Virus record (IMG/VR): IMGVR_UViG_3300012212_000013
Coordinates: 1-20,048 of that record
Length of the DNA: 20,048 bases
Origin: a virus
Reading direction: 5' to 3' (one strand)
The translations under genes were made by a program, and so were the position numbers. A model generated the notes under the pieces. The model did not search any database. It worked only from the letters and a program-made list of their open reading frames with translations, and had not been told where the DNA came from. Shown in pieces: positions 9,566 to 20,041 of the stretch (the first letter of the stretch is position 1; the number at the start of each line of letters is the position of its first letter).

Positions 9566-10023
9566 GTTTCATCTTAACTTTAGAGATGGATAAGCTAGAT
9601 CAAATTCTAGAAATCCTGCCAAAGTACGAACAAAAGGTAAAAGATTCAGCGGTGATCTTTGAGTTGGAAGGTCGCAAGCTTGAAGAAATTGCAAGGACTC
9701 TTCCTCACTACCAGCAAAACTACGGCAAAGCTTATCAGGATATGAAAGCTTTGGATGAATGGCTGCAAAATGTCAAAGAGAAAGAGACGGCAAGGCTTTG
9801 GAAAAAGTACGTAGAGGGATATCCAAAACAGCTTAGCACTCGAGACGTCCAAGCTTACATTGCTGGTGAGAAAGTAATTGTTGAATTGAATCAAATTATC
9901 ATTGAAGTTCAACTAATCAAGAATCAACTTTACGAAGTAAACGATGGCTTGAAGACAATGGGGTGGATGGTAGGTCACATCACCAAACTTCGTGTGTCTG
10001 AACTTCAAGAAACAATTCTGTGA
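9562..10023 (+). CDS. uvsY: UvsY-like recombination mediator, 153 aa
   Basis: UvsY helps load UvsX onto gp32-coated DNA. The protein is almost entirely helical, is close to T4 UvsY in size (137 aa), and has the expected order. That order is an N-terminal helix pair with K-x-x-E, a Y-x-D-M-K-A-L-D-E-W-L segment, a basic R-L-W-K-K-Y linker followed by Y-P-K-Q-L-S-T-R-D-V-Q-A-Y-I-A-G (residues about 92-107), and a C-terminal helix with V-N-D-G-L-K-T-M-G-W-M-V-G-H-I-T-K-L-R. The gene lies between uvsX and uvsW. The assignment rests on pattern and context because UvsY is poorly conserved. It starts in an ATGA overlap. Confidence 0.75.
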   Translation: MSFILTLEMDKLDQILEILPKYEQKVKDSAVIFELEGRKLEEIARTLPHYQQNYGKAYQDMKALDEWLQNVKEKETARLWKKYVEGYPKQLSTRDVQAYIAGEKVIVELNQIIIEVQLIKNQLYEVNDGLKTMGWMVGHITKLRVSELQETIL

Positions 10024-10029
10024 GTATTA

Positions 10030-10062
10030 CTGCCGATCTTCCCAGGTTGGCAGTTTTGCTTT
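10030..10062 (+). terminator. Rho-independent terminator after uvsY
   Basis: CTGCCGATCT (10030-10039) pairs with AGGTTGGCAG (10044-10053) in a 10-bp stem with two G-U pairs and the loop TCCC, followed directly by TTTTGCTTT. It starts seven bases after the uvsY stop, as expected for the end of the gene 32-uvsX-uvsY unit. Confidence 0.75.
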
Positions 10063-10082
10063 GAATGAGTTGGTATTACAAT
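10055..10082 (+). promoter_or_regulatory. Possible MotA-type middle promoter before uvsW
   Basis: TTTGCTTTG (10055-10063) matches the T4 MotA box (two A/T bases, TGCTT, T/C, A) except at the last base. TACAAT (10077-10082) lies 13 bases further as a -10 element. The box overlaps the T tract of the terminator. Whether this phage has MotA is not visible here, so the call is tentative. Confidence 0.3.
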
Positions 10083-10146
10083 AACATATCACGTGGTGCC
10101 TTGATGATAACGTTTGATGTAAGGCATCACCCTTCCTTATTTTCCT

Positions 10147-11951: not shown

Positions 11952-12694
11952 ATAAGAAAGAGAAAGAAAACATTGCTCTACTCTACAACTATCGAATTGT
12001 AGAGTGGGATCCTCTAGAAATTGAAGACCCTAACGGATATATTGTTAGGAAAAGTGCCAAAGCACTTCTAAATCACATCCTCCATACATACGAGAAATCA
12101 ATGCAAGACAAAGAAGACCCAACAATTAATTATGTAGACGAGGGAGAGCATCTTCGCGTCGACAAAGAGCTGGAAGATGTTCGTAGCTTCCATCAAAAAT
12201 TTAACTTCATTGATTCAGGTCGAGTGCCAGTTCACGCAACAAAGCGTAAATTAAAAGAACGCACAGAATGTATGCAAGAAGAACTAGATGAGTTCAAAGA
12301 AGCAATTGAGACCCAAGATTTGGCCGCTCAAGCAGATGCACTTATCGACCTGGTCTACTTTGCAAAAGGCACTGCAGTCATTCTTGGCCTACCATGGGAA
12401 AAGTTGTGGGATGATGTTCAGCGCGCAAACATTTCCAAAGAACGTGGCATGACCAAACGTGGTCATGCATTCGACGTGATCAAACCTACGGGATGGGTTG
12501 CTCCAAACGGTGAACGAATTCTATTGGAAGCGGGTTATCATCGTCCAAGTTTTGAAAGTCATGGTCGAATTAATGAGAATCTCTGCACTGATGATCTGCG
12601 GCGAGTCTACTTCAATGACGTTGGAAACAATTCTCTGATTCGCTTCACTGCCAACTATGAAACAAAGTCGGACACTAATGAGGAAACCGAATAA
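11948..12694 (+). CDS. MazG-like nucleotide pyrophosphohydrolase, 248 aa
   Basis: All-alpha NTP pyrophosphatases hydrolyse (d)NTPs to NMP and pyrophosphate. The core is at residues about 80-165: F-H-Q-K-F at the start, the metal-binding E111-E-L-D-E115 helix, a second helix with Q-A-D-A-L-I-D-L-V-Y (D130 and D134), then a G-L-P-W-E-K-L-W-D-D-V-Q-R-A-N-I-S-K motif common to phage MazG/PRA-PH-like proteins. An N-terminal 80-residue extension and a C-terminal 75-residue tail (V-A-P-N-G-E-R-I-L-L-E-A-G-Y) are longer than the minimal fold and of unknown use. It may clean or adjust dNTP or ppGpp pools; the substrate cannot be told from sequence. Confidence 0.8.
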   Translation: MNKKEKENIALLYNYRIVEWDPLEIEDPNGYIVRKSAKALLNHILHTYEKSMQDKEDPTINYVDEGEHLRVDKELEDVRSFHQKFNFIDSGRVPVHATKRKLKERTECMQEELDEFKEAIETQDLAAQADALIDLVYFAKGTAVILGLPWEKLWDDVQRANISKERGMTKRGHAFDVIKPTGWVAPNGERILLEAGYHRPSFESHGRINENLCTDDLRRVYFNDVGNNSLIRFTANYETKSDTNEETE

Positions 12695-13203
12695 TGCAAG
12701 TTCTAGCCGATTTCGGTAAATCATACGTCATTGAAAGCTTGACCAGCCCGGTTGCTATTCGCTATCATTGGATTTTCAATGCACAACTGACTGACTTTCT
12801 ACTCCAGCAAATCACCTATTTGGAAGAAACAACTGGTGCTGCAGTGAAACTGCGGGTCAACGGTACTGAATTTTGGGTACCTTCAACCTGGCATATCCTT
12901 GTAACTGATCGCGACACCTATCAACTAGATACCGTATCTGTCCAATCCTGCTCTAGCTCCAAGCATATTGCGTTCATCTTTGCTCCAGACGAAATGAATT
13001 TGCGAACGCTAGACATTGAAGTGATTGACTACAATGATGACATTTCTCTTGTTCACCCAATGATCAATAAAGGACAAGCCCTTGTTCATCCTGTTGGACC
13101 AGGACAAGGAGTGGGCAAGACACTTCAGTTATCTGTCGTGATTGGTCCGCATGATCTTTACAAGCATCTGTCCAACAAAGTAGTGGGCGACATCACAGGT
13201 TGA
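12694..13203 (+). CDS. Hypothetical protein, 169 aa
   Basis: I do not recognise this gene. It overlaps the previous stop by one base (TAATG) and has GAGG about 10 bases upstream. The product appears beta-rich, with strands such as A-A-V-K-L-R-V-N-G-T-E-F-W-V and A-F-I-F-A-P. It has a Gly/Pro segment (H-P-V-G-P-G-Q-G-V-G-K-T, about 132-143) that is too irregular to call a P-loop, and ends I-G-P-H-D-L-Y-K-H-L. No membrane segment is present. It is the last gene before the endolysin leader. Confidence 0.7.
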   Translation: MQVLADFGKSYVIESLTSPVAIRYHWIFNAQLTDFLLQQITYLEETTGAAVKLRVNGTEFWVPSTWHILVTDRDTYQLDTVSVQSCSSSKHIAFIFAPDEMNLRTLDIEVIDYNDDISLVHPMINKGQALVHPVGPGQGVGKTLQLSVVIGPHDLYKHLSNKVVGDITG

Positions 13204-13207
13204 TTTA

Positions 13208-13292
13208 TTGGGTACTTCATTTGATTAATTCTCTCCGGGATAGAAATAAATATCCCATCAAGAATAAAGGAGAATAAAGATGAAGTACCCAG
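13208..13292 (+). promoter_or_regulatory. Long inverted repeat that buries the endolysin start codon
   Basis: Bases 13208-13222 can pair with 13278-13292 in 15 contiguous pairs (13 Watson-Crick and two G-U). They contain the perfect 11-bp inverted repeat GGGTACTTCAT (13210-13220) and ATGAAGTACCC (13280-13290). The right arm contains the start codon and the first codons; the ribosome-binding site AAAGGAG (13266-13272) is in the loop. A smaller perfect hairpin (GGGATA/TATCCC, 13237-13256) lies inside. RNA entering from upstream genes would fold and hide the ATG, while RNA starting inside the loop would not. Confidence 0.65.
13245..13252 (+). promoter_or_regulatory. Candidate late promoter for the endolysin (AATAAATA)
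   Basis: AATAAATA matches the T4 late octamer TATAAATA at 7 of 8 bases and lies inside the large inverted repeat. Transcription from it would begin after the left arm and just before the AAAGGAG site, giving mRNA that cannot form the start-codon stem. Confidence 0.45.
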
Positions 13293-13861
13293 ACGGCTTT
13301 GTGCAGGCCTTCAATCATGCAATGCTTTATGAGGTAGGCGGTTTCTTTAACTCGACTGATCCTGACGTAATCGCTGGTAGAATTTCTACCAAAGAGCAGC
13401 GTCAGAAAGTCGGGTACGTTAACATCCCGAATGATAGGGGCGGCGAGACCAAGTTTGGTGTGGCACAGAAAGCAAATGTTGATGTGAATGTTAATGCATT
13501 GACGTTAGATGGGGCAATGCAGGTGTATTTCTCCAATTACTGGATTAAAGGTAAATGCGATCAACTTCCTTATCCATTAGCGTTGATTCATTTTGATGGG
13601 TGCGTTAACCATGGCGTTGGACGTGCTAATAAATTTCTTCAACGTGCGGTTAATGTCGCAGAAGATGGTGTGATTGGCCCAATCACACTGCAGTCAATCG
13701 CTAAAGGCAATCAAAAAGACTTGATTACCAAAATTTCCTCCTACAGGGCTGACTTCTACAATGCAATCGTTCAGCGTGATCCATCACAAAAGATGTTTCT
13801 TAATGGCTGGATGAGAAGAATTAACGAAGTAACCAGCTTTACTCTCGCATCTCTCAAGTAA
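13280..13861 (+). CDS. Endolysin, GH108 muramidase with C-terminal peptidoglycan-binding domain, 193 aa
   Basis: This is a cell-wall hydrolase, probably an N-acetylmuramidase that cleaves glycan strands at lysis. The N-terminal half has the GH108 signature: Y-E18-V-G-G-F with E18 as candidate catalytic acid, followed by D-R-G-G-E-T-K-F-G-V (52-61), which corresponds to the family's D-x-G-G-x-T-x-x-G-I/V. The C-terminal half has F-D-G-C-V-N-H-G-V-G-R-A, F-L-Q-R-A-V and V-A-E-D-G-V-I-G-P-I-T-L, typical of the PG_binding_3 domain. There is no signal peptide or N-terminal anchor, so it needs a holin to reach the wall. AAAGGAG at 13266-13272 sets the start. Its translation is probably kept low until late RNA is made (see the leader structure). 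Confidence 0.9.
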   Translation: MKYPDGFVQAFNHAMLYEVGGFFNSTDPDVIAGRISTKEQRQKVGYVNIPNDRGGETKFGVAQKANVDVNVNALTLDGAMQVYFSNYWIKGKCDQLPYPLALIHFDGCVNHGVGRANKFLQRAVNVAEDGVIGPITLQSIAKGNQKDLITKISSYRADFYNAIVQRDPSQKMFLNGWMRRINEVTSFTLASLK

Positions 13862-13992: not shown

Positions 13993-16335
13993 ATGACGCA
14001 AGTAATTCACGTCATCAAGCGTAATGGAGAAAGGGTACCACTCGAACTCGAAAAATGGTCTAACCAAATCGCAAAAGTTTGCGAAGGCATTGATGGGGTA
14101 TCCACTTCGATGATTGAGATCGCCGCACAGGCGAACTTTTATGATGGAATGCCAACTCGCGAGCTCGATCAAATGGCACTACGTGCAATGATTGACCTCA
14201 TCGACGAAGAAGAACACCCGGAAACCGGCAACGTCAACTACCAGTACGCAGCTGGTAAGCAACGAATCTCGATGCTAAGAAAAGACGTTTACGGTACATA
14301 CACCCCACCGCGCTTGTATGACATTGTTAAGAAGAACATCGACAACAATTTCTACACCAAAGAACTTCTAGAATGGTACACTGAAGCAGAATGGGATCAA
14401 ATTGAAAAATTTGTTGATCATGATAAGGATGAGCACCTTCCTTACGCCGCAGTTGACCAACTCATCGAGAAATATCTTGTCCAAGACCGCACCAAAGCTG
14501 GTTACGTTGTAGAAACCCCACAAGTTCGTTATGCGGTTGCTGCTGCTACGGCATTCCATGCAGAGAAGAAAGATCGTCTGCGTTGGGTTCGTGACTTCTA
14601 CAACTCGGCATCAGATGGTTTGTTCACGCTTGCTACTCCTGTTCTTGCAGGATTGGGAACGAAAACCAAACAGTTTTCGTCTTGCGTGTTGATCAAGAGT
14701 GACGATACCCTGAAGTCGATTTTTGCTTCTGGCCAAATCATGGCTGACTACGCAGCTAAGCGAGCAGGCATTGGTTTGGATATCGGTCGTCTTCGTCCAC
14801 TTGGCGCACCTATTCGTGGCGGCGAAGTAAAACATACCGACATGGTTCCGTTCCTGAAGAAATGGTTCGCAGACCTTCGCTCGTGTTCACAAGGCGGTAT
14901 TCGTAACGCATCTGCGACTACGAACTTCCCATTCTGGCATGCACAGGTTGAAGACCTTCTGGTGCTAAAGAACAACCAAGGCACTGACGAGACGCGTGTT
15001 CGCCATCTTGATTACTGCGTCGGTGTCAGCGCATTGATGTGGAAGCGATTTTACCACCAAGGCGTCATCTCTCTGTTTGATCCGAATCAAGTTCCAGACT
15101 TGTACGAGGCTTACTATCGCGACTACGATCTGTTTGAGCAACTCTACGCAGAATACGAGCAGCGTAGGGACATCACGGTTAAGCAGATTTCTGCTGAGAC
15201 CTACGTCAAAGACCTCTTCAATAAAGAGCGTTCTGACACCGGTCGTTACTATGTCTTGAACGTCGACAACGTCGCAAAGCAAGGTCCGTTTAATCCGCAA
15301 ATCCACCCAGTGTACATGACAAATCTCTGCACGGAGATCATGCAACACACTCGTCCATTCCAGACGGTGGAAGACCCAGAAGGTCGTATTGCCCTTTGCA
15401 CGTTAGGTAGTTTGAACTGGGGTTGCTTCCGTAATCCAGAAGATATCAAACGTCCAGCAGTGGTATTGCATCGGGCACTGCACAACCTTCTGCAGTACCA
15501 AGATTTCCTGTCCATTCACAGCGAACTGCACAACAAAGAATTTGAACCTCTGGGTATCGGCATTACCAATCTTGCTTACTGGCATGCCAAGCGCAAGATG
15601 AAGTACGGTGAAGCAGATGCATTGGCTGAAGTCAAGCGTTGGATGGAACACCAAGCATTCTATCTGACCGAAGCGTCCGTGATGCTTGCGAAAGAGAAAG
15701 GTCCTTGCGAGATGTCTTCGCAGACCCGCTACGGTCAAGGTATCTTCCCATGGGAGATGCGTGCTGCCGGTGTTAATGAACTGACTGACTTCACTCCGTC
15801 GGAAGATTTGGATTGGGAAGGCCTACGTACGAAGCTGAAGATGTATGGTATCCGCAACGCAACGCTGATGGCCATCGCTCCAGTTGAATCTTCTTCGGTG
15901 GTTATCAACTCGACGAACGGTATTAACCTCGTCAAGCAGCTGATCATCATCAAGGAATCCAAAGCAGGTGCATTCGCTCAAGTCGTTCCTGAGTATCGCA
16001 AGCTGAAGAATCACTATCAGCTTCTGTGGGATCAGAAAGACTGCATCGACTACATCAAGACCACCGCGGTTCTGCAAGTGTACGTGGACCAGGGTATCTC
16101 GTCTGACACATACTACTCGCCCAAGTGGTTCCCTGAAGGTAAAATCCCTGTCACGCTGGTAATTGGTAACTTGATGAGAGCACACAAATATGGCTTAAAG
16201 TCCCATTACTATGCGTTGACAGATAAGGAGGGAGCAAAAGAGATGCTTTCGCAGAATGACCATCAAGTAAATAGTAATAACAACATTACTATGGAAGATG
16301 ATGGAGAAGATTTTTGCGAATCATGCGTCTTGTAA
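13993..16335 (+). CDS. nrdA: Class Ia ribonucleoside-diphosphate reductase large subunit, 780 aa
   Basis: NrdA reduces ribonucleoside diphosphates to deoxy forms with the NrdB radical. An ATP-cone fills residues about 3-90 (V-I-K-R-N-G at the start, Y-Q-Y-A-A-G-K-Q-R at the end), so overall activity should be allosterically controlled. Active-site residues are visible: C231 in S-S-C-V-L, N444-L-C446-T-E448, C469 in A-L-C-T-L-G-S-L-N, the P-V-E-S-S-S block, and a Y-Y pair near the C-terminus for radical transfer. The terminal C775-E-S-C778-V-L is the redox-active pair re-reduced by glutaredoxin. The length is like T4 and E. coli NrdA. The last 45 codons are more AT-rich than the rest, next to the inserted endonuclease gene. 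Confidence 0.96.
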   Translation: MTQVIHVIKRNGERVPLELEKWSNQIAKVCEGIDGVSTSMIEIAAQANFYDGMPTRELDQMALRAMIDLIDEEEHPETGNVNYQYAAGKQRISMLRKDVYGTYTPPRLYDIVKKNIDNNFYTKELLEWYTEAEWDQIEKFVDHDKDEHLPYAAVDQLIEKYLVQDRTKAGYVVETPQVRYAVAAATAFHAEKKDRLRWVRDFYNSASDGLFTLATPVLAGLGTKTKQFSSCVLIKSDDTLKSIFASGQIMADYAAKRAGIGLDIGRLRPLGAPIRGGEVKHTDMVPFLKKWFADLRSCSQGGIRNASATTNFPFWHAQVEDLLVLKNNQGTDETRVRHLDYCVGVSALMWKRFYHQGVISLFDPNQVPDLYEAYYRDYDLFEQLYAEYEQRRDITVKQISAETYVKDLFNKERSDTGRYYVLNVDNVAKQGPFNPQIHPVYMTNLCTEIMQHTRPFQTVEDPEGRIALCTLGSLNWGCFRNPEDIKRPAVVLHRALHNLLQYQDFLSIHSELHNKEFEPLGIGITNLAYWHAKRKMKYGEADALAEVKRWMEHQAFYLTEASVMLAKEKGPCEMSSQTRYGQGIFPWEMRAAGVNELTDFTPSEDLDWEGLRTKLKMYGIRNATLMAIAPVESSSVVINSTNGINLVKQLIIIKESKAGAFAQVVPEYRKLKNHYQLLWDQKDCIDYIKTTAVLQVYVDQGISSDTYYSPKWFPEGKIPVTLVIGNLMRAHKYGLKSHYYALTDKEGAKEMLSQNDHQVNSNNNITMEDDGEDFCESCVL

Positions 16336-17218
16336 GTGGCTGAATCATTATGAGAGATTGATAGAACGAGGAAGGTCTCGTTCTATCAGTGAAGGAGAAT
16401 ATTATGAGAGGCACCATATTGTTCCAAAATGCATTAGTGGAACAGATGATTTGGAAAACTTGGTGTCTCTCACTCCTGAAGAACACTACACTGCTCATTT
16501 AATCCTGTGCAAGCTATTTCCTAATAATGGGAAATTATATCGCGCAGTAGCTATGATGACAGTTGATAGTCCTTCAGCTCCTCGAAACAACAAGATGTAT
16601 GGGTGGATAAAGCGCAAACTCAGCATTCATAATTCTAAAAGAATGAAAGAGTGGCATAAGAATAATACTCATCCTATGCTTGGTAGAAAGCAGTCTGCTG
16701 AAGCTAGACAGAAAATAAAAGATTCTTTCAAGAACAAGCCAAAGAAACTTGCCCATTATTATTCACCTGCGACCGGTGAATATCTTGGTACGTGTAATTC
16801 TGTTAAAGAGGCAGCGGAGAAATTCGACATACACCATCAAACAATTTTCTCATGCATTAGAATTCCTGGTAAACGAACTGCTGGTGGATATTTTTGGTCA
16901 TACGAAAAGGTTCTTAACATAGGGGCGACTTCTAAGTTCATTAACGGAAAGCCAAGTTTGAGACTAGGTAAGTCCTTAGCACCTGATATTCCTAGACGAG
17001 ATATGTTTTACTCGTCTAAAGTAAAAAGTGATGATGAAGTGAAAAGATGCTGGGTGTTAGCTGATGAGATCAGTAAGAATCTAGATGTACTTCCACAATT
17101 TACCCAAAATAACAAACTTCGAATTTCTCCTACTAGAAACATAGCAAAACGAATTAAACAAGGTTGGAATCCAACTTTAGATCCAGAATGGTTAACATGG
17201 AAAGAAGCAAATAAATGA
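16298..17218 (+). CDS. Free-standing HNH homing endonuclease, 306 aa
   Basis: The HNH core is H39-H40-I-V-P-K with N54 and H63 (E-E-H-Y-T-A-H), the pattern of phage HNH homing enzymes. A NUMOD3-like DNA-binding motif follows (H-P-M-L-G-R-K-Q-S-A-E-A-R, about 125-137), then a NUMOD1-like helix-turn-helix (Y-L-G-T-C-N-S-V-K-E-A-A-E-K-F, about 162-176) and a basic Trp-containing C-terminus. Such enzymes cut related genomes lacking the gene so that it is copied in. The gene overlaps the end of nrdA by 38 bp, and its TGA overlaps the nrdB ATG (ATGA). It is more AT-rich than its neighbours and uses AGA, TTA and ATA codons, which marks it as acquired. The exact start (16298 or 16301) is uncertain. 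T4 mobE occupies the same nrdA-nrdB gap. Confidence 0.9.
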   Translation: MMEKIFANHASCKWLNHYERLIERGRSRSISEGEYYERHHIVPKCISGTDDLENLVSLTPEEHYTAHLILCKLFPNNGKLYRAVAMMTVDSPSAPRNNKMYGWIKRKLSIHNSKRMKEWHKNNTHPMLGRKQSAEARQKIKDSFKNKPKKLAHYYSPATGEYLGTCNSVKEAAEKFDIHHQTIFSCIRIPGKRTAGGYFWSYEKVLNIGATSKFINGKPSLRLGKSLAPDIPRRDMFYSSKVKSDDEVKRCWVLADEISKNLDVLPQFTQNNKLRISPTRNIAKRIKQGWNPTLDPEWLTWKEANK

Positions 17219-18810: not shown

Positions 18811-18818
18811 GATAAATA
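18811..18818 (+). promoter_or_regulatory. Candidate late promoter for the holin-like gene (GATAAATA)
   Basis: GATAAATA differs from the T4 late octamer TATAAATA at one base and lies 20 bp beyond the nrd terminator and 31 bp before the ATG at 18850. A late start would suit a lysis gene. Confidence 0.45.
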
Positions 18819-18849: not shown

Positions 18850-19233
18850 ATGAATTCAATGGTAACTATCATGGGTATCACTTTTAACATTTATGGCGCG
18901 ATTATCGGCGGGCTGCTACTATTTTTTGCAGGAGCTTTCTGGCGCGCTAGTCGCAAAGGACATCTTAACTGGACTGACATGATTACTAGGGATGGTAATA
19001 AGGTCAGTGCGACAAAAGTATTACAACTAGTTGGCGGAGTAGTTGGTACTTGGATTATGGTTCAAATGACTTTGAACAATACGCTGAATTGGGACTTGTT
19101 CGCCATCTATCTCGGCTATGTTGCGTCGATCGACGGCTTCAGCAAGTTGGTGCTGGCCAAATATGGTGCTTCGAATGATGCATATAAGCCACAAGACTCC
19201 ACACCACCTCCATCACCTAAAACTCCAGAGTAA
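18850..19233 (+). CDS. Holin-like membrane protein with three predicted spans, 127 aa
   Basis: Three hydrophobic segments are seen: about 9-31 (I-T-F-N-I-Y-G-A-I-I-G-G-L-L-L-F-F), 56-75 (V-L-Q-L-V-G-G-V-V-G-T-W-I-M-V) and 82-103 (L-F-A-I-Y-L-G-Y-V-A-S-I-D-G-F). They are followed by a polar, Pro-rich C-terminal tail. The size and three-span layout fit class I holins that open the inner membrane for the endolysin, but there is no diagnostic motif, so holin is a likely rather than certain call. ATG 18850 is chosen because a possible TTG start at 18802 lies upstream of the candidate late promoter; ATG 18859 is also possible. It is not adjacent to the endolysin gene, as is usual in T4-type phages. 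Confidence 0.65.
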   Translation: MNSMVTIMGITFNIYGAIIGGLLLFFAGAFWRASRKGHLNWTDMITRDGNKVSATKVLQLVGGVVGTWIMVQMTLNNTLNWDLFAIYLGYVASIDGFSKLVLAKYGASNDAYKPQDSTPPPSPKTPE

Positions 19234-19264: not shown

Positions 19265-20041
19265 TTAGCGATTATTGTGATCTCTAATAATGCTCCAGAA
19301 CTTTGCAACGCCTGATGGCATGTACGCTTTGAAGCGGTAGTCCTGTACAATAATGTGAGTGGGACTTAGTCTAGTAGCAGGAATGATCGAACCATTGTGG
19401 AAGCGAAGTTCCAATGTTTGAGCCTTATGCCAAGTGCCATGCATAGGATTCTGTTTGTAGGTAGTTCCCACGACTACAACTTCTGCCATCGGATTTGGAT
19501 CGCGTTCACCATTACTGCCCATGTAGTAAAGCTTTCCATTCTTTTCATGTGCAAAGCGAAACACAGACCCAATAAAGTCAGGATCTATTCTTTCACCGCT
19601 TTTCAATCGCTTAATTCTCTTATCGTAACCAGTATGACCATACAGATCATCAGTACTTGGTGTATTAAACTCAGAAATTAAATCAGATTTTGATTTAGTC
19701 TTCAGAATTTTAGCATCAGTCATATGAACAACGGCCCCCATGTTGAAGTTCGCTGCGTCAGTCTTAGCTCGATAATCAGGTAGAACAGAAATCAGTTCAT
19801 CGTCAGCATGAACTTGAATGACGATACCTTCTACGTTCTTGCCGGCCATACCTTCAGCCTTACTGACTTTACCGCTAGCAGTATACTCTACTCGCTGACC
19901 GACTTCGAATTTAGTCTGTTTTGCCTTGATTGGGACTGCTGGGGTCGTGTCTTTCTTCGGTAACCTGCGGATAGACTTGCCGTCTTTATCGATGTATTTC
20001 TTGGCTTCGCCCGAAGCTTCGAATAGCTGTGCTAGTTTCAT
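19265..20041 (-). CDS. Hypothetical protein, possibly capsid-targeted, 258 aa
   Basis: This is the only convincing minus-strand gene of the window. The N-terminus is M-K-L-A-Q-L-F-E-A-S-G-E-A. It resembles the short leader of T4 internal head proteins (M-K-T-Y-Q-E-F-I-A-E-A), which the gp21 prohead protease removes after L/I-x-E; here L-F-E followed by A would fit. The body is basic at first (R-R-L-P-K-K-D; K-A-K-Q-T-K-F), then mixed with beta-strand segments (G-I-V-I-Q-V-H-A-D-D-E-L-I-S-V-L; A-E-V-V-V-V-G-T-T-Y). No enzyme motif is seen. Packaging into the head is inference. Only seven bases upstream of the start are in the window, so its promoter and ribosome-binding site cannot be judged. 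Confidence 0.8.
   Translation of the reverse strand: MKLAQLFEASGEAKKYIDKDGKSIRRLPKKDTTPAVPIKAKQTKFEVGQRVEYTASGKVSKAEGMAGKNVEGIVIQVHADDELISVLPDYRAKTDAANFNMGAVVHMTDAKILKTKSKSDLISEFNTPSTDDLYGHTGYDKRIKRLKSGERIDPDFIGSVFRFAHEKNGKLYYMGSNGERDPNPMAEVVVVGTTYKQNPMHGTWHKAQTLELRFHNGSIIPATRLSPTHIIVQDYRFKAYMPSGVAKFWSIIRDHNNR

Follow-up and report, generated by a model that had tools for sequence, protein, structure and literature searches.

A hairpin enclosing a late promoter covers the start of a GH108 endolysin gene and is predicted to act as a T4 gene e-type RNA switch

The start of a GH108 endolysin gene in a 20-kb viral fragment (IMGVR_UViG_3300012212_000013; all 20,048 nt were analysed and are referred to as the window) is held in a long hairpin with a late promoter motif inside it. 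The hairpin is real and exceeds what chance would produce. Judging from folding predictions and comparison with related loci, it is very probable that an RNA switch of the T4 gene e type controls this endolysin. The mechanism is already known from T4 e, soc, 49 and I-TevI; the novelty lies in its having been rebuilt repeatedly on the GH108 endolysins of T4-like phages, and here in a left arm lying wholly upstream of the promoter.

T4 gene e encodes a GH24 lysozyme and is under translational control by a hairpin spanning late promoters (PMC3014915). T4 soc, gene 49 and I-TevI are likewise late genes located in early or middle transcription units, with ribosome sites hidden by hairpins and late promoters inside them (PMC3014915, PMC2988022), and a review of homing endonucleases adds segB and Aeh1 mobE to the hairpin-controlled cases (PMC2988022). 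The open-access literature yielded T4 cases only, and nothing in it described such control of a GH108 endolysin.

Results

The window carries the T4-type genes UvsX, UvsY, a gp32-like SSB, the N-domain of UvsW, NrdA and NrdB. The endolysin gene (13280-13861, plus strand) encodes a 193-aa protein matching Glyco_hydro_108 (4.9e-17), PG_binding_3 (1.3e-11) and PHROG endolysin (4e-46). As originally proposed, this enzyme is unrelated to the T4 e lysozyme: it falls outside the GH24 family and consists of GH108 plus PG_binding_3. Searching the DNA of the locus against cultured phages returned no match. The upstream gene, phrog_11279 (12694-13203, plus strand), is a possible source of read-through RNA. 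The genes on both sides of the endolysin lie on its strand and a terminator scan found nothing convincing in the gap (13204-13279), so read-through into the endolysin is plausible. Further along the window, a homing endonuclease gene (phrog_655, 16298-17218) lies between nrdA and nrdB and overlaps the end of nrdA; the 5' part of its reading frame contains a perfect 12-bp hairpin (16359-16388).

Positions 13209-13220 (TGGGTACTTCAT) are the exact reverse complement of positions 13280-13291 (ATGAAGTACCCA), giving a 12-bp core that is extended by the pairs 13208-13292 (U-G), 13221-13279 (U-G) and 13222-13278 (U-A). The outer stem (13208-13222 with 13278-13292) therefore has 15 pairs, two of them wobbles, at the coordinates of the original prediction. 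Its right arm holds the ATG (13280-13282) and codons 2 to 4. An inner stem, overlooked in that prediction, pairs ATTCTCT (13228-13234) with GGAGAAT (13269-13275), which holds the Shine-Dalgarno sequence. Also overlooked was a small hairpin around the promoter octamer, GGGATA-loop-TATCCC (13237-13242 with 13251-13256, spanning 13237-13256), which appears in the predicted fold of the window. The inner stem refines the earlier reading, the fold supporting a lock on the Shine-Dalgarno as well as on the ATG. The minimum free energy of 13190-13310 was -38.0 kcal/mol, whereas dinucleotide-shuffled sequences gave -22.9 +/- 2.9 kcal/mol (z -5.2; 0 of 200 as stable). No known RNA family was matched in an Rfam search.

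The late-promoter octamer AATAAATA (T4 late consensus TATAAATA) was found between the arms at 13245-13252 on the plus strand, where it had been reported. The heptamer ATAAATA occurs three times in the window against 2.8 expected by chance; the octamer carries weight as evidence through its positional conservation ahead of the gene in relatives and not through motif frequency. T4 spacing places the probable late transcription start at 13257-13258 (plus strand), and the initial sequence ATCAAGAATAA is common to the window and its nearest relative, L001. ATCA, present at 13257-13260, also occurs a few bases after many late-promoter motifs in another relative record (L292-L321, the record of L011) and may be a shared transcription start sequence. 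Matches to gp55-like proteins were present in 8 of 12 relative records, including the 343-kb record of L001 (PHROG late sigma factors, 2e-27); none was seen within the 20-kb fragment itself.

Accessibility of the ribosome site was calculated as the free energy cost of making positions -14 to +3 around the AUG single-stranded. For the window this cost was 12.0 kcal/mol when the RNA was read through and 0.3 kcal/mol when it started after the octamer. When the upstream part was shuffled, the value was about 4.1 +/- 2.2 kcal/mol, and p was about 0.004-0.012 over four runs. T4 gene e, used as a positive control, gave 15.6 kcal/mol for read-through RNA and 3.8 or 0.9 kcal/mol from its two late promoters (p 0.008). 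The effect originally predicted, a start closed in read-through RNA and open in late RNA, was obtained: the predicted mean unpaired probability of the start region was 0.30 in the former and 0.94 in the latter, and the Shine-Dalgarno and AUG were both unpaired in the fold of 13258-13310.

More than 50 loci with related endolysins were found in viral contigs, some of them in records of 240-385 kb, and were clustered at 75% protein identity into 31 clusters. The TAAATA promoter motif stood at the expected distance upstream of the start in 29 of these, the same position as in the window, and was absent from this range in two. Read-through RNA was more closed than shuffles across the clusters overall, with about half not reaching p 0.05 individually. 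The 19 clusters treated as co-directional had a mean occlusion z of 2.6 (Wilcoxon about 1e-5); some occlusion was still seen (mean z 1.5) in the 10 treated as divergent, where read-through is less expected, the split being rough enough that a few mixed clusters could fall on either side. No significant lock was found in relatives L008, L026, L048 and L206. Two geometries recur. The left arm is wholly upstream, with the promoter in the loop, in the window, L001, L052 and L188; in the second geometry, seen in T4 e, L007, L021 and L042, it starts within the octamer. The left arm of T4 e is AATACCTTC, beginning in the promoter. Arm sequences vary by lineage while pairing with the Shine-Dalgarno or AUG persists, and most of the distant relatives appear to have rebuilt the lock with different sequences. 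The GH108 endolysins of the Pelagibacter T4-like phages HTVC008M and Mosig had no comparable motif or hairpin at their start.

Joint variation of the left and right arms, the test set in advance by the original prediction, was observed in relatives: three pairs together showed five compensatory changes affecting both sides of a stem, a small number of events in arms aligned by hand. The endolysin of L001 is 81% identical to that of the window. Between these two loci, one G-C pair of the outer stem is replaced by A-U, the change in the right arm being silent (codon 3, TAC to TAT), and one A-U pair of the Shine-Dalgarno stem is replaced by G-C; a further 11 outer pairs are unchanged, and only two end pairs are broken. 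Two both-side changes separate L009 from L011, in which a Thr to Ala change at codon 2 is matched in the left arm, and one A-U to U-A change separates L052 from L188. Each change falls where the lock model requires it. Scans with other subfamily queries added few new close relatives, so the covariation rests on pairs of relatives and not on a deep alignment.

To place the endolysin among other late genes, genes behind a late-promoter motif were scored in five large relative records, with lists that are incomplete and may include some wrong starts. The endolysin had the highest opening energy among the scored genes in four of the five: 20.4 in G001 (first of 24), 21.6 in G003 (at most 9.9 for the 20 other genes), 18.9 in G004 (first of 25) and 12.4 in G008 (first of 24). 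It was second of 13 in G009. Late genes with a Shine-Dalgarno and p<=0.05, endolysins included, numbered 6 of 17 in G001, 5 of 8 in G009 and 0 of 13 in G003. A tentative extension, which we regard as somewhat doubtful, is that in large T4-like phages the promoter region of many late genes is complementary to the ribosome site, only promoter-begun RNA being translatable, with the endolysin locked most tightly and its arms repeatedly rebuilt.

Several observations were made on other late genes. In the record of L042 (L273-L291), TAAATAGG...CCTATG recurs at several late genes that are unrelated to one another, the end of the promoter pairing there with the bases immediately preceding the start codon. 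Of the 13 genes scored in that record, 5 had p<=0.05. A small membrane protein of the window (phrog_1322, 18850-19233), holin-like by hydrophobicity only, is preceded by a late-promoter motif at 18811-18818. A lock on this gene was not significant (p 0.25); the start of its L001 counterpart (around 9640-10110) was occluded by pre-promoter sequence (p 0.012). An N-terminal pattern, MKxxELLE (e.g. MKLAQLFEAS), was seen in the window at 19265-20041 (minus strand) and in many late genes of the L001 record (L064-L093). It resembles the capsid-targeting leaders of T4 internal proteins and possibly marks a large set of packaged head proteins.

Discussion

Collectively, the fold, opening energies, covariation and conserved motif lend in silico support to the original T4 e-like reading of the hairpin and late promoter. 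Read-through RNA from early or middle genes upstream would fold into the long hairpin, pairing the Shine-Dalgarno and AUG so that ribosomes could not start. Late in infection, a gp55-type phage sigma factor would start RNA at about 13257, inside the hairpin; such RNA, without both left arms, would be unstructured at the start site and translated. We infer the read-through transcription, the late start, the repression and its timing. Three features of gene e-type control have their counterparts here: pairing of the Shine-Dalgarno and AUG in read-through RNA is indicated by the predicted fold, opening energy and covariation; a late promoter inside the structure by the motif and its conserved position; and a late RNA without the 5' strand and open at its start by prediction from the presumed start site.

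An inverted repeat around a promoter might instead act at the DNA level, as a protein operator or a cruciform over the late promoter, with the RNA fold as a by-product. The repeat does flank the promoter symmetrically in the window, L188 and L052, and T4 I-TevI binds an operator that covers the late promoter of its own gene (PMC2988022). A shared operator would not be expected to differ in its arms among lineages while Shine-Dalgarno/AUG pairing persists, and the use of G-U pairs and the asymmetric arms starting inside the octamer in many relatives also make this explanation highly improbable.

Long RNA stems are possible nuclease substrates, and the hairpin has such a stem; it could therefore be an element for mRNA stability or processing (e.g. 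an RNase III site), or an attenuator, rather than a translation lock. The stem is not followed by a T run, however, and no terminator was reported at this site by the terminator scan. The Shine-Dalgarno and AUG are themselves paired in the window and several relatives, and removing the pre-promoter part specifically opens both, leaving little room for a role in stability or attenuation, which we consider very unlikely. That the inverted repeat merely arose by chance beside an unrelated AT-rich octamer is barely credible: ATAAATA is about as frequent as chance in the window, and the similarity of the window and L001 left arms could reflect recent common descent, but the fold z of -5.2, the compensatory changes in three separate pairs of relatives and the top rank of the endolysin in four of five genomes all stand against it. 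The covariation and rank results largely refute it.

The system works like gene e but is not a gene e homologue. Both control a lysis enzyme gene through pairing of the Shine-Dalgarno and start region in long RNA, with a late promoter in the 5' part of the structure, a late RNA without the 5' strand and comparable computed opening energies. In contrast to T4 e, the window has an unrelated GH108 enzyme, different neighbours (T4 e follows nudE), a single promoter preceded by the entire left arm, where the T4 left arm begins in the promoter, and an additional long stem into the coding sequence. The other known cases (T4 soc, 49 and I-TevI, segB, Aeh1 mobE) concern genes of other functions. The original prediction had left open whether the control arose on, or was moved to, a different lysis gene. 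Independent, repeated origin is favoured over transfer of the e leader, because the arms differ per lineage and lie partly in coding sequence, and the enzyme and neighbours differ from those of T4 e.

Two cultured Pseudomonas phages, Astolliot and Milchi, have a GH108 endolysin with a Shine-Dalgarno-hiding hairpin (CCTCCGAC-TAAATATG-GTTGGAGG) around a promoter-like motif, with significant occlusion (p 0.017 and 0.004), and a gp55-like gene. They differ from the window in protein sequence (about 38% identity over 70% of the query) and in having a shorter hairpin and no AUG stem. Both look like cultured test cases.

Many T4-type phages are listed as having no apparent gene e (PMC3014915), and such phages could have the same control by way of, for instance, GH108 endolysins. 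The comparisons made here also allow late-locked genes to be sought in uncultured phages from sequence only. In divergent T4-like phages, gene e-type control appears to recur on a lysis enzyme unrelated to that of T4, with arms rebuilt per lineage. This pattern points to strong selection, acting repeatedly, against the expression of lysis enzymes from read-through RNA.
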